Positions 41,323 to 48,927 of a stretch of 64,000 nt of DNA are shown here, piece after piece. This DNA comes from Deltaproteobacteria bacterium (lineage in GTDB: Bacteria > Bdellovibrionota_B > Oligoflexia > Oligoflexales > Bog-1112), in assembly GCA_016186945.1 (NCBI GenBank), contig JACPKR010000041.1:1-64000 (forward strand), read 5' to 3'. The notes beneath the pieces are model-generated. The model did not search any database and was not told the DNA's origin. It saw nothing but the letters and a program-made list of their open reading frames with translations. A program made the position numbers and the translations under genes. The number at the start of each line of letters is the position of its first letter. Position 1 is the stretch's first letter.

Positions 41323-41466
41323 CGCTGTCATCCCGCGGCTTGACCGCGGGATCCAAAGGAGCAGCCTTTTTTGCGCTGTCATCCCGCGGCTTGACCGCGG
41401 GATCCAAAGGAGCAGCCTTTTTTGCGCTGTCATCCCGCGGCTTGACCGCGGGATCCAAAGGAGCAG
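41314..41466 (+). repeat. Three identical 51-bp tandem repeats with a GC-rich hairpin
   Basis: Units 41314-41364, 41365-41415 and 41416-41466 are identical. Each holds GTCATCCCGCGGCTTGACC.. GCGGGATCC, the same hairpin nested in family B long forms, followed by AAAGGAG. As 51 is a multiple of 3, the frame stays open and would code three 17-residue repeats (CAVIPRLDRGIQRSS..). Confidence 0.95.
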
Positions 41467-44180: not shown

Positions 44181-44230
44181 AGCAAGGAAGGGAGTTTGAG
44201 GGAAAACTGCGCAGCTGGTTTCCCTCAAGT
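44181..44230 (-). repeat. Family A repeat fragment (A8)
   Basis: GGGAAAACTGCGCAGCTGG..TTTCCC, the hairpin core with compensating changes in the stem (GAGGGAAA / TTTCCCTC instead of GGAGGAAA / TTCCTCC). It lies between the convergent ends of the Glt-like operon and the 44225 gene. The paired changes hint that the stem matters. Confidence 0.65.
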
Positions 44231-44668
44231 GAGATGACGAGTCTCAGGGAAAGTGATGCGTGACGTCTTACCGCGCAGGAATTGATCGACGGAAAGCACA
44301 ACCATCTCAGACGGAACATGAAAAGAGACAGACGATTGATTGTAGACATCGAGTTGCATCTGTTGACCTGCCGTCAGGTGTTCGAGTATAGGAAGAAAAC
44401 CGTAGCGGGACCGCTCGATGTTTTTACGTAGCCGCTTGAGTTCCTCCACTTGGGCTTCGAGCCTTTCAACAAAAAAACGAGCGCGCGCATGCAATTCCCT
44501 TATCTCGGACGGACTCAGCTCCCCAGACGTGGGAAGGATCGAGTGCTGAAACTCCCCGTCAACCTGAGAGTCGTTGTCATCCTGAGCGTAGCGAAGAACC
44601 TTCGACGTTCCCGATGTCGTTGGCGTTTCCGTAATTGTAGGCGAATTTTGTATTCCTTCCACTGCCAT
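44225..44668 (-). CDS. Small coiled-coil protein of unknown function
   Basis: 147 residues; GGGGGA about 7 bases before the ATG. Residues about 52-88 form a strongly charged coiled coil (SEIRELHARARFFVERLEAQ.. VEELKRLRKNIERSR). The C-terminal third is beta-rich. Residues about 20-32 (TSKVLRYAQDDND) are coded by the short GTCATCCTGAGCG-type repeat found in many bacterial genomes, so the N-terminus may be repeat-modified. It converges on the Glt-like operon; no link to it is shown beyond position. Confidence 0.6.
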   Translation of the reverse strand: MAVEGIQNSPTITETPTTSGTSKVLRYAQDDNDSQVDGEFQHSILPTSGELSPSEIRELHARARFFVERLEAQVEELKRLRKNIERSRYGFLPILEHLTAGQQMQLDVYNQSSVSFHVPSEMVVLSVDQFLRGKTSRITFPETRHLT

Positions 44669-44741: not shown

Positions 44742-46910
44742 TTAAAAAAGAGGGACTCCGTTGTGGAGGCCATCCCAGACGGGGGCGTTCGCAGATCCTA
44801 GGGGGACGACAGGGAACGTTTTCAGAAGGTCCTTCCCAATTTCCTGTTCAAGCGTTTCGTTAGAAACACTTAGACAAATCAGGTTGGGAAATTTAGTTAA
44901 GTCACTTAGCAATTTGTTCTCGTCCCTGTAGTAAAACACAGGGAGCACGAAAGGATGAGGGGATAGAAGTTCCCACACCTTTCTGGTTTCCGTAATCTCG
45001 ATAATAGGGAGAAAACAGTCATCGTTGGAGTCACGTGGTACGACGAACGATGTTCCCAAGTTGCGAAAACGTACAGCCTCCAGGTCAACAGCGATCCGCT
45101 CGAAAGTGGAGAGGGGGGCATTCCAGAACCGTCTGCACTCATCTCTTAGTACCTGCAGGAAATCAAGGAGACCTTTACCTGACGCAAAACAAAAGAGGGC
45201 ACGGGAAGAAAAACAACCGCGCTGTCCTAAGCTGAGCATATCCTTGGCGAGAAGGTCTGCGTCAGATGGCGAGCAGGAAGTCAAAAGACTAGCTGTAATT
45301 CCGGTGCCAAATCCCTTGATGGGTATCTGACTTTTCTTTTCCAAATCTTGGATCGTCTGGTTATCCCCAAACACCAAGATGTGAGAAATCTTCTCAGGGA
45401 AGGGGCCTTCTGGAACACGTACAGAGGAAGGTAAAATAGAGATGGGGCTTAGTTTTCCAAGCCCTTGCAGAAAAAGGTTAAGGCAAGAATCTGGACGTTC
45501 AAAATTCCTCGGCAGACGTACACTAAGCTCTAGTCCTGCCATGGAACCTATGACAACTGGATAGATGCTTGCAAGACTATGATTGTTGGGAGCGATAATA
45601 AGCCAAGAATCTCCGGCGTTGGCGCTTGAGTTCGTGCTTGCTTGTTTCCAAGCTTCGTCATTTTGTGGAATAGACAGACTCAGATCTTTGAGGGCAGAGC
45701 GTGCAGCGGATGTAGATTTGAATTCATCTTCAAGACTTTTCAGTGTGGAGGCATCATTCAGAAACTTACTTAGAAATTCATTCATAAGTTTAGGGTTCAT
45801 TTTGAGAGTAAGAGATGGGGAAGACGCAGGTGCAAGAGGGCGGGGAGGGAATAGAGTTTTCTTTTCTCGGTGGCCTTCTTCCGCATCGAGCGAGCAACCC
45901 TTCAACGGTGCCTGCGGGACTCTTCCCATGTAGGTGAACGTGCTATCAGCTTTCATGTCGACGATATCTTGAGTACGGATGGGCCATGGGAAATCGATCC
46001 TTAGGGGGTCGTAGGTGACCAGTGCACCTTCACCTTTTCCACTTGCAGTTTGAGGCCCCTGATGTACAAGGCGATTCACCCATGCTGGGAAGCGAAAGGT
46101 GCGTGGTCGATCGGGGGAAAAGGAAAAATCATAGGCCTGACACGCGAACTCACACATCCCATATTCGCTGACAATTTTCTCTGTCGGAAGGAAAAAGAGG
46201 TCTGAGATCAGTTTGAAAAGAGCATCGCGAGTGAGTTCGCGACTTTTCCCTTTATACCCTCCGGTTTCAAAAACAACGGATCCTTCGGGCAGTTTTCTCC
46301 GCACCCCCCTGTCGAAAACATTTATAAAATCAAAGGCCGTTCCAAAAACCCATAGCGCCTGATCTACCTTCGATGATTCCAGGAACTCGGAAAGTTTTTC
46401 CGGTCTTACAAAGTCCACATGCCAAAAATCACCAATCCATGAGATCATTTGGGACAGGCTGCTGTCTGGTCGGTCTGAGATATGGGGTACAAGGCTGATG
46501 CCCGGTATGGCTGTACTATGCCTTTGGTAGAATCGCTTCAGGACATCGTTGAAAACTTTGAGGCTTTGCCCCATATAGAGCAGCAGGCCATCTGTGCTAA
46601 AAAGTGATTGAGCAGCGGTGGCACTGGTGGTCCCGCTCGATTTAAAAACTTTCGCAGGTTTCTTGTTTGAATTTTGCAAGAAGAGTTGATGAATTTGACG
46701 TTCTCTAAAATATTCGATAGGCAAATAAGGAATTCCTTGTTTACCCAGCGTCGGTAGTTCGAGGCCCTTCGCTTGTTTGACGCGCGCGACAAGGTCAAAA
46801 TCAGAATCGAAGCTGTCGGGGAGCACCTTCATCAAGTCCCAAAGTTCCTGCCCTTGAAGTGTGCTAAACCTGAGATTCTGGAAAAAGCTCTTTAAAGTCT
46901 TTTCCGACAT
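44742..46910 (-). CDS. LuxE-LuxC single-chain fusion (acyl-protein synthetase + acyl reductase)
   Basis: 722 residues. Residues 1-345 match the LuxE acyl-protein synthetase family: FKSSGTTSATAAQS (89-102), ETGGYKGKSRELTRD (215-229), EYGMCEFACQAYD (249-261), and Cys339 in LKGCSLDAEE, the position of the acyl-carrying Cys. Residues about 375-722 match LuxC-type acyl reductases: WLIIAPNNHSLASIYPVV (436-453), Cys566 in LGQRGCFSSRALF, and a late VWDGL motif. LuxE activates a fatty acid as acyl-AMP, and LuxC reduces the acyl group to an aldehyde with NADPH; here both are on one chain, so the acyl could pass internally. No luxAB is present. Starts 9 bp after a 63-residue gene. Confidence 0.87.
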   Translation of the reverse strand: MSEKTLKSFFQNLRFSTLQGQELWDLMKVLPDSFDSDFDLVARVKQAKGLELPTLGKQGIPYLPIEYFRERQIHQLFLQNSNKKPAKVFKSSGTTSATAAQSLFSTDGLLLYMGQSLKVFNDVLKRFYQRHSTAIPGISLVPHISDRPDSSLSQMISWIGDFWHVDFVRPEKLSEFLESSKVDQALWVFGTAFDFINVFDRGVRRKLPEGSVVFETGGYKGKSRELTRDALFKLISDLFFLPTEKIVSEYGMCEFACQAYDFSFSPDRPRTFRFPAWVNRLVHQGPQTASGKGEGALVTYDPLRIDFPWPIRTQDIVDMKADSTFTYMGRVPQAPLKGCSLDAEEGHREKKTLFPPRPLAPASSPSLTLKMNPKLMNEFLSKFLNDASTLKSLEDEFKSTSAARSALKDLSLSIPQNDEAWKQASTNSSANAGDSWLIIAPNNHSLASIYPVVIGSMAGLELSVRLPRNFERPDSCLNLFLQGLGKLSPISILPSSVRVPEGPFPEKISHILVFGDNQTIQDLEKKSQIPIKGFGTGITASLLTSCSPSDADLLAKDMLSLGQRGCFSSRALFCFASGKGLLDFLQVLRDECRRFWNAPLSTFERIAVDLEAVRFRNLGTSFVVPRDSNDDCFLPIIEITETRKVWELLSPHPFVLPVFYYRDENKLLSDLTKFPNLICLSVSNETLEQEIGKDLLKTFPVVPLGSANAPVWDGLHNGVPLF

Positions 46911-46919
46911 AGTATCACG

Positions 46920-47111
46920 CTATCCTTTTTTTTCTTTCTCACGAGTATTCTTCTTTACCTCGGCTGAGCGTTTCAAATTGATTTCCTTTTTCATCTCTCT
47001 TAATTTCTGAAGGACACGTGACTTAAGGGAAGGATTTTGATCGAGGATAATTTTAATAACTTCCCAGTCATCGAACCCTTTGCGTTCATTGGTGCTGGCA
47101 TTGTTTGCCAT
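46920..47111 (-). CDS. Small basic coiled-coil protein upstream of the LuxE-LuxC fusion
   Basis: 63 residues with AGGAGG about 5 bases before the ATG. Highly charged, with a helix RVLQKLREMKKEINLKRSAEV. No family recognised. It ends 9 bp before the LuxE-LuxC start, so the two are probably co-transcribed; the promoter would have to be in or beyond the family B repeat at 47123. Confidence 0.65.
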   Translation of the reverse strand: MANNASTNERKGFDDWEVIKIILDQNPSLKSRVLQKLREMKKEINLKRSAEVKKNTREKEKKG

Positions 47112-47350: not shown

Positions 47351-48247
47351 TCATTTTCGGGCGCTGACGTAAAATCTCCAAGGTCTAGGGTAGCCTTCCA
47401 CGGTAAATTTCTTATCGGCAGGTGAGAGGAATTCCTCCAGGCTTTTCACCGGAGCGTACCGAGTCGTCCGCTGTTCCTGAGTGGAGAGCGGGCCTTTGTA
47501 AAAACAGTGGGGATCCTTGAACCCGCTCCTCATTATCCAGTTCATAAGTGCCGGCAAAGTGGGGAGGAACCACATTCCACCTGCTCCTGCATATCTGCCA
47601 GCAGGGACCAGGGCACTTGGGGTGTCGCCCGAGATTCCTTGGCAGTCAATGATTACGGTGCCACCTGTTTTAAGCGCCTTGTTTAGCTTTCGCAATATGC
47701 CCAAAGGGTCGGTGTGGTGATAGAGTATTCCCAGGCAGAAGATAACGTCAAAAGTCTTGGGGAAGGAGTCGATCGCTTCCACTCCCTGGGTTTCGAAATA
47801 CAGGCGAGGAACCTGCGCGAAACTCTGCAGAAATTCAAAACATAGCTTATGCTGAAGCACTGGCTCGAAGCCGATCACTTCCGCGGGTCGTAGGGCACTC
47901 ATCCTGAACATGTAGTATCCATTATGACAACCGATATCGGCAACCGTCTTGGCTTCGAGCGAAACATGGGGGAGTATACGCGCCCACTTCCAGTCAGATC
48001 GCCACTCGGCGTCAATGTGTTCTCCAAAAATACGAAAAGGTCCCTTTTTCCAAGGCATGAATGCTTTGAGAATCTTGAGAATCTCTAGGCGTTCCTTTGC
48101 GCTTAGCTCTGAAGGATCTCCGATCACCACTTCAGGGCCGCTTGCGTCGAAACATTGGGTGCGAAAGGTGGGGACCTTGCCCATGATCTGTTGGAATCTG
48201 TGGGCCTCGTTCATTTCAATGCCACAATGGAAACGAAGGAGTGCCAT
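47351..48247 (-). CDS. cmoB: tRNA 5-carboxymethoxyuridine synthase
   Basis: 298 residues; the E. coli protein is 323. N-terminal helical part, then a Rossmann SAM domain: VADIGCHNGYYMFRMS (motif I), IGFEPV, FDVIFCLGILYHHTDPLG, and the PLSTQEQRTTRYAPVKSLEEFL C-terminal block, all typical of CmoB. It uses carboxy-SAM to turn ho5U34 into cmo5U34 in tRNAs. The start overlaps cmoA by 37 bp. Confidence 0.93.
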   Translation of the reverse strand: MALLRFHCGIEMNEAHRFQQIMGKVPTFRTQCFDASGPEVVIGDPSELSAKERLEILKILKAFMPWKKGPFRIFGEHIDAEWRSDWKWARILPHVSLEAKTVADIGCHNGYYMFRMSALRPAEVIGFEPVLQHKLCFEFLQSFAQVPRLYFETQGVEAIDSFPKTFDVIFCLGILYHHTDPLGILRKLNKALKTGGTVIIDCQGISGDTPSALVPAGRYAGAGGMWFLPTLPALMNWIMRSGFKDPHCFYKGPLSTQEQRTTRYAPVKSLEEFLSPADKKFTVEGYPRPWRFYVSARK

Positions 48248-48927
48248 TTCAGAACAATGTCCACTGTAGAGAATCCTGCGCGTTCCAAAAGATCATACTG
48301 CTCGGTCAGAGTCAGTGGGACCAGCACATTGTCAAGGGATTCTTTCTTGCGTTCGATTTCGTTTTGACTGTAGCCGTTTTTTCTCTTGAAGGACTCGTAG
48401 ATATAGGTCTGTGTTTCCTGAAACGCAGGGACTGCAGACCGTATCTTCTCACTGAGGAACAAAAGTCCACCGGACTTAAGACCCGAGAAAATCTTTTGCA
48501 ATAGTGTGAATCGCTCTCGCACCGGGATAAATTGCAGCGTAAAGTTGCAGATGATCATGGAAGCATCCTGGAACTTCATGTCAAGCGCGTTTTGACATTG
48601 GAGGGAGACCCTGTTTTTAATCCTGAACGGAGCTAACTTCGCCTCTGCGTTGTCCAACATGGCTTGTGAGCTGTCGACACCGATCAAGTCGAGGTGCCAG
48701 GGGATATCTTGGCAAAGTAAAGCGAGTGTGGTTCCTGTCGAGCAGCCTATGTCGTAGATCGTACTTTCTTCTTTGCTGTAAGCCTCCGCCCATGCGGTAA
48801 TGCACGATTGCACTTCCTGGTAGAAGGGAATAGACCGCACTGCCATGTCGTCGAAAACGTTTGCAACATCCCGGTTGAAAGAGAAAGGACGGGGGTAATT
48901 CTCGGTCTGGAAAACTCTGTCGAGCAC
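48211..48927 (-). CDS. cmoA: Carboxy-S-adenosylmethionine synthase
   Basis: 238 residues (E. coli 247). Motifs of CmoA: FNRDVANVFDDMAVRSIPFY, IYDIGCSTGTTLALL (SAM motif I), IGVDSSQAMLDNAE, IICNFTLQFIPVRER, and the SEKI.. loop. It makes carboxy-SAM from SAM and prephenate for CmoB. It overlaps cmoB by 37 bp, giving a coupled pair, and is divergent from the peptide-binding gene at 48969. Confidence 0.94.
   Translation of the reverse strand: MLDRVFQTENYPRPFSFNRDVANVFDDMAVRSIPFYQEVQSCITAWAEAYSKEESTIYDIGCSTGTTLALLCQDIPWHLDLIGVDSSQAMLDNAEAKLAPFRIKNRVSLQCQNALDMKFQDASMIICNFTLQFIPVRERFTLLQKIFSGLKSGGLLFLSEKIRSAVPAFQETQTYIYESFKRKNGYSQNEIERKKESLDNVLVPLTLTEQYDLLERAGFSTVDIVLKWHSFVSIVALK

Follow-up and report, generated by a model that had tools for sequence, protein, structure and literature searches.

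A fused LuxE/LuxC-like protein of Oligoflexia as a probable carboxylate reductase of queuosine synthesis

A single gene in which a LuxE-like acid-activating domain runs into a LuxC-like reductase domain, located on a 64,000-nucleotide stretch of an Oligoflexales genome ("the window" hereafter; positions 1 to 64,000 of contig JACPKR010000041.1, assembly GCA_016186945.1), probably encodes an enzyme that reduces a carboxylate in queuosine (Q) synthesis and takes the place of both QueC and QueF. This role is proposed because the family is linked to queD and queA, because it replaces QueC/QueF in the genomes that carry it, and because the residues fixed in its acid-activating (E) domain are not those of true LuxE. 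In the established pathway (see also PMC11130926), Q is made from GTP by FolE, QueD and QueE (yielding CDG), QueC (preQ0), QueF (preQ1), Tgt and QueA. It also seems reasonably likely that preQ1 can be made de novo by a second route without a nitrile, in which a LuxE/LuxC-type CDG reductase and a class-III aminotransferase replace QueC/QueF, and which would be used by Oligoflexia (with the two halves fused), Verrucomicrobiota, Eremiobacterota and others.

The gene itself (Table 1) reads from an ATG to a stop codon over 722 codons with no internal stop, and its two candidate catalytic cysteines lie in the contexts LKGCSL (Cys339) and GQRGCFSSR (Cys566). The first-pass annotation of this DNA, which had described LuxE and LuxC as joined in one 722-residue chain with both catalytic cysteines present, is borne out, as the frame is intact on the minus strand and both cysteines are in place and invariant in 37 aligned homologues. 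A frameshift between the halves, which that annotation had named as a threat to its claim, is excluded as an artefact because 47 of the 51 related genomes with a match carry the gene in one open frame (645-873 aa); chance joining is likewise ruled out by these 47 single-frame homologues together with the single clade formed by the fused rows. The AlphaFold model of the whole protein has a pLDDT of 84.8. The small frame just ahead of the gene may be co-transcribed with it, and downstream, on the same strand, lies a 147-aa frame (44225-44668) with no family match and no relatives in the compared loci. A 19-base, palindromic-looking element is present in the window as a dispersed repeat of six exact copies (24300, 34148, 41327-41447 and 47243); three of these form a tandem array with a spacing of about 51 bases, and another lies upstream of the fusion. 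No member of the luciferase family (luxAB) was found among the 28 window proteins scanned.

Table 1. The fusion gene, its parts and its same-strand neighbours in the window.
Feature	Position	Strand	Basis
Fused LuxE-like/LuxC-like protein, 722 aa	44742..46910	-	Single frame; relatives; 37-row alignment; AlphaFold model
LuxE-like acid-activating domain, residues 1-341	45888..46910	-	Pfam LuxE weak; LuxE chain of 7xc6 by profile; PaaK-family fold
Cys339 codon, candidate E-domain acyl-acceptor cysteine	45894..45896	-	Invariant in alignments
Linker, residues 342-371	45798..45887	-	AlphaFold model: residues 340-364 of low confidence, disordered
LuxC-like reductase domain, aldehyde-dehydrogenase fold, residues 372-722	44745..45797	-	7xc6_A match; PF05893 matches in homologues
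Cys566 codon, candidate catalytic cysteine of the reductase	45213..45215	-	Invariant in alignments
Small frame, 63 aa, putative coding	46920..47111	-	Ends 9 bases ahead of the fusion start; read from sequence
cmoB, tRNA wobble-uridine modification	47351..48247	-	Upstream, same strand; NF011650 317.7 bits (cut-off 209)
cmoA, overlapping cmoB	48211..48927	-	TIGR00740 206.8 bits (cut-off 193.3)

Taken alone, the window protein is a poor match to the Pfam models, scoring 21.5 bits against LuxE (PF04443) as a whole and 24.0 bits with the N half only (cut-off 24.9), with no match of the C half to LuxC (PF05893) even at an E of 10. The domain identity is nevertheless secure, since both the relatives and the fold match LuxE/LuxC: when the 37 homologues were scanned singly at E<=1, LuxE was matched by 12 and LuxC by 16, the split relatives exceed the Pfam cut-offs (26.9-61 bits for LuxE against 24.9, and 117-245 bits for LuxC against 21), and a search with the family profile picks up the PDB 7xc6 LuxE chain at an E of 9.7e-11. 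Among solved structures, the C half is matched best by the LuxC chain 7xc6_A (Z 26.4 over 345 residues, rmsd 3.9, model residues 364-722), the next row having Z 23.5, and structure match and alignment together give this half an aldehyde-dehydrogenase fold with Cys566 as the candidate catalytic cysteine. The E half was folded separately (pLDDT 88.1), because the structure rows for the whole model (Foldseek, VIA) were filled by aldehyde dehydrogenases, and its nearest solved folds are PaaK-family AMP ligases (Z 20-21), several of which act on aryl acids, a modelled likeness that would fit a small aromatic acid as the substrate. The LuxE chain of 7xc6 is not among the best 50 structure rows for the E half, which excludes nothing.

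The comparison covered 56 related Oligoflexia genomes, from the window's genus up to its class, and all except G003, G004, G006, G007 and G055 contain a match to the fusion. The four matches that do not fall in one frame are those of G001 (frameshifted, in a genome 75% complete), G005, G031 and G040; in G005, a member of the window's own family, E and C are two genes on different contigs, each with its cysteine. Carriers within the class are Oligoflexales and Silvanigrellaceae (e.g., Fluviispira multicolorata), and two Silvanigrellaceae genomes have a second, divergent fused copy beside other genes (L082:6752-8770 and L085:6119-8131). Relatives outside Oligoflexia are found in Verrucomicrobiota, Armatimonadota, Eremiobacterota and Hydrogenedentes, where the halves are separate genes: across 51 such loci, profiles detect both E and C in 40, with C after E, and E without C within the stretch in 11, while gene models give an E+C pair in 38, of which 27 overlap or lie at most 90 bases apart. 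The alignment of 37 full-length homologues has 25 invariant columns, both cysteines among them. In the tree all fused rows, 37 in number, group as a single clade (support 100/98) beside the split rows, and a branch of 2.83 changes per column leads to four true LuxE of the same order. No relative of the fusion was found on viral contigs, nor, with a single split E as the query, in phages, and the first scan of genome contigs with the window protein alone gave no match.

A further argument comes from what these genomes do without. With true QueC defined as a match over at least 190 of the 210 model columns, and true QueF as one with an E below 1e-10, the 56 relatives include four with the former (G004, G006, G007 and G054) and three with the latter (G004, G006 and G007), so that the 51 fusion genomes have no true QueF at all and a near-full-length QueC once (G054), and G004, G006 and G007 have both enzymes and no fusion. 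For QueF, the comparison of 0/51 fusion genomes with 3/5 non-fusion genomes gives a one-sided Fisher p of 3.6e-4, uncorrected for kinship. The same is seen in 50 further pair-bearing genomes reached through other loci (49 split and one, L131, fused), where full-length QueC is found in none and true QueF in one (G071). The cultured Fluviispira multicolorata has the fusion and no true QueC/QueF match. The fusion or pair almost never occurs together with QueC or QueF, the exceptions being G071, whose pair stands beside a true QueF, and G054, whose fusion is accompanied by a QueC relative (193 residues, divergent, and without the YPD motif of the G004 and G006 QueC), and both count as evidence against the Q role. 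Within the window's family, the replacement of QueC/QueF may have been one event. The Pfam cut-off alone, before any sorting, would credit 29/56 and 17/50 genomes with QueC, and 13/56 and 1/50 with QueF; as orthologues, however, such weak matches were rejected, as ten that were fetched all turned out to be other enzymes (FolE in five of five cases for the QueF model; NadE, ArgG twice, an AsnB-like protein and LarE for the five of the QueC model), and the remaining ones were judged by the same pattern, i.e., a partial model match in a frame of another length.

The neighbourhoods point the same way. Among 54 Oligoflexia stretches (the window included, some genomes contributing two), 26 have queA, in every case downstream of the fusion and on its strand, as the immediately next gene in 5, the second in 5 and the fourth or fifth in 16; where it comes immediately next, it overlaps the fusion or lies at most 35 bases away, and does so in three families (f4, f6 and f7). 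At the verrucomicrobial locus L168/L241, queA adjoins the pair divergently, and queD comes first or second after the pair in 19 of the 51 non-Oligoflexia loci. NCBIfam models gave 98.7 bits for a QueD example (cut-off 89.25), 372.7 for a QueA example (cut-off 324) and 307 for a second one, below that same cut-off. The window's own fusion locus has neither queD nor queA nearby, its same-strand neighbours being cmoA and cmoB, the products of which act, in other tRNAs, on the very position that Q occupies, the wobble base; cmoB also directly precedes the fusion in G002 (L035:3263-4129, 47.8% identity, with the fusion starting at L035:4138). A class-III aminotransferase lies at most two genes from the pair in 9/51 non-Oligoflexia loci, and between the set from Eremiobacterota-like loci and that from Verrucomicrobiota the identity is 43-53%. 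Two ordinary aminotransferases in L130 share 29-37% with these pair-linked ones, and the enzyme encoded beside E in L117 is more distant from them than the two sets are from each other (36-39%). Most loci have no linked aminotransferase, and the Oligoflexia stretches examined show none; nor did any of 22 loci contain a Q riboswitch at Rfam gathering scores.

The gap between CDG and preQ1 amounts to turning -COOH into -CH2NH2, and therefore fits the combination of an E domain, a C domain and an aminotransferase. In the scheme that we infer, FolE, QueD and QueE would furnish CDG (7-carboxy-7-deazaguanine) in the usual way; the LuxE-like half would adenylate the CDG carboxylate with ATP and then bind it as a thioester on Cys339; the acyl group would pass from Cys339 to Cys566 in the LuxC-like half, to be reduced there with NAD(P)H to the aldehyde, 7-formyl-7-deazaguanine; and a transaminase, presumably the class-III aminotransferase beside the pair in some phyla and an unlinked enzyme elsewhere, would convert the aldehyde to preQ1, which would proceed to Q through Tgt and QueA.

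The rest of the pathway is largely in place. Tgt was found in 50/51 fusion genomes (all but G011) and 23/24 sampled others, and the PTPS model, which covers QueD, is matched in 46/51 (not in G010, G013, G016, G031 and G032) and 22/24, respectively. Many of the Oligoflexales matches are weak, and their frames, of about 310-345 aa, have two domains. QueE is present in five pair-bearing genomes within the stretches examined; of three scanned with the QueE model, one scores 357 against a cut-off of 240, and two have QueE as the best match at scores below it. The window's genome has FolE, Tgt, the fusion and a gene of QueD type (80.7 bits against a cut-off of 89.25), and no true QueC/QueF match; QueE and QueA were not located in it. 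One might object that the protein serves some other Q step, be it tailoring or the salvage of a carboxylated precursor, with preQ1 taken up from outside, which would agree with the linkage to Q genes, with the genomes without a PTPS match, and with an MFS gene found beside the pair in 9/51 non-Oligoflexia loci, which could be a precursor transporter. We regard this as unlikely: QueD, and QueE where sought, are kept adjoining the pair or in the same genomes, which counts against salvage because salvage alone would need neither, and the missing step matches the chemistry of the enzyme.

Two features of these genes deserve mention in their own right. The two-domain PTPS-like protein of about 310 aa (L216:6754-7686, L221:1474-2370 and L212-L215) adjoins QueE in Silvanigrellaceae, and in Oligoflexales lies near what looks like a class-I glutamine-amidotransferase-like gene. 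L211:6305-8326 encodes a second Tgt of about 673 aa with a C-terminal MnmC2-like methyltransferase domain, and frames of comparable length recur among the second Tgt copies in Oligoflexales.

Cys339, the putative acyl-acceptor role of which at the C-terminus of the domain follows Vibrio LuxE, is present in all fused (37/37) and split (49/49) E rows and in the true LuxE of the same order (4/4), and Cys566 in all fused (37/37), split (37/37) and true LuxC (4/4) rows. S150, S151, T216, S248, E249 and Q258, in contrast, show little or no variation among the fused and split E rows, and true LuxE differs at these positions. An E/C pair on plasmids of Azospirillum and Pantoea, which groups inside the split set in a quick tree, keeps S150, S151 and Q258 and has Asn-Met at 248-249, and it is for this reason that E249 was picked as a candidate for base recognition. 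These plasmid-borne pairs (Pantoea dispersa in the latter case; L242:4845-7378 and L243:4665-7219) have ABC-transporter or SDR genes, not Q genes, as neighbours, so near relatives of the family can serve other pathways, and the plasmid pairs are another non-luminous use of the LuxE/LuxC scaffold.

The possibility raised by the first-pass annotation, namely a fused fatty-acid reductase that hands the acyl group over internally and releases a long-chain aldehyde for lipid (including envelope lipid), wax, hydrocarbon or signal, has to be split accordingly. Its enzymological part, the real fusion, the two cysteines and a possible internal hand-over giving an aldehyde, stands. The fatty acid substrate and the lipid uses are not supported: the queD/queA context, the QueC/QueF replacement and E-domain residues unlike those of LuxE point to CDG in Q synthesis. 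Kinship to LuxE/LuxC and the existence in the same order of true LuxE/LuxC relatives with other partners do speak for a fatty-acid reductase; however, the invariant E-domain residues differ from those of true LuxE, the fold of the E half is closest to those of PaaK-family ligases, among them several that take aryl acids, the recurring neighbours are queD, queA and cmoB, with no recurring lipid genes noticed beside the fusion or pair in the 54 Oligoflexia stretches and 51 other loci (recurring neighbours only), and the loss of both QueC and QueF would be left unexplained, all of which makes it quite improbable. That the neighbourhood and the QueC/QueF absence are mere lineage effects with no functional link is very improbable indeed, for even if the fusion lies within a conserved block of housekeeping genes in Oligoflexia (scpA, scpB and rsuA, judged from sequence) and QueC/QueF presence in the window's family could reflect one or few events, the Q gene that is linked differs between phyla (Verrucomicrobiota have queD, Oligoflexales queA, which also occurs at L168) and QueC/QueF are absent across about 100 genomes.

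A CDG reductase of this kind would have parallels in several known systems, none of which it duplicates. With the LuxC-LuxE complex (Photobacterium, PDB 7xc6) it shares the two domain families, the expected order of chemistry and both catalytic cysteines, but it is one chain in Oligoflexia, has different fixed residues, is linked to Q genes with no luminescence genes seen in the window, and is separated in its E domain from the true LuxE of the same order by a branch of some 2.8 changes per column. QueC (7-cyano-7-deazaguanine synthase) together with QueF (the NADPH-dependent nitrile reductase) would have the same start, CDG, the same end, preQ1, and the same use of ATP and NADPH, whereas the folds are unrelated and the proposed course is through an aldehyde and transamination instead of an amide and a nitrile. 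PaaK-family aryl AMP ligases (2y4o, 6siw and NatL2, 6tm4) share the fold of the E half over about 280-290 residues at the Z scores given above; the E half, however, is without much of their C-terminal part, and its proposed acceptor is a protein cysteine and not CoA or an amine. Carboxylic acid reductases (CAR) also activate an acid with ATP and reduce it to an aldehyde within a single chain, by way of a phosphopantetheine carrier and an SDR-type reductase, in place of which the fusion has a cysteine relay and a reductase of the aldehyde-dehydrogenase fold.

As far as our searches go, the fusion clade and its proposed role are new, the enzyme families being known. In the open-licence literature searched, the whole words "LuxE" and "queuosine" do not occur in the same paper and no LuxE/LuxC-type route was found among QueC/QueF alternatives, and "7-formyl-7-deazaguanine" is absent from the 40 papers listed from 2023 on. 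According to PMC4772473, deletion of a LuxE homologue in a non-luminous bacterium raised the transcripts of 12 translation-related genes, the expression table including an S-adenosylmethionine tRNA ribosyltransferase, i.e., the reaction of QueA, and the authors there read the homologue in terms of fatty-acid metabolism. Genomes with Tgt, QueA and QueD and without QueC/QueF would ordinarily be taken for salvagers of Q precursors; should the proposal be true, they would be makers using new chemistry, and the annotation of Q metabolism would change across whole phyla. It would also give a use to "bioluminescence" genes annotated in non-luminous bacteria, provide a pair of enzymes that turn the carboxylates of small aromatic acids into amines, and turn the luciferase-aldehyde enzymes and a tRNA-base enzyme into two branches of one widespread scaffold.

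In four Oligoflexales genomes there is also a canonical LuxE gene and, after it, a LuxC that appears, from its sequence, to run into a PaaK-like ligase domain (L088:2936-7787, L089:2-8912, L090 and L091:2153-9707); these genes are accompanied by GNAT-like and MFS-like ones and make up a separate biosynthetic cluster.
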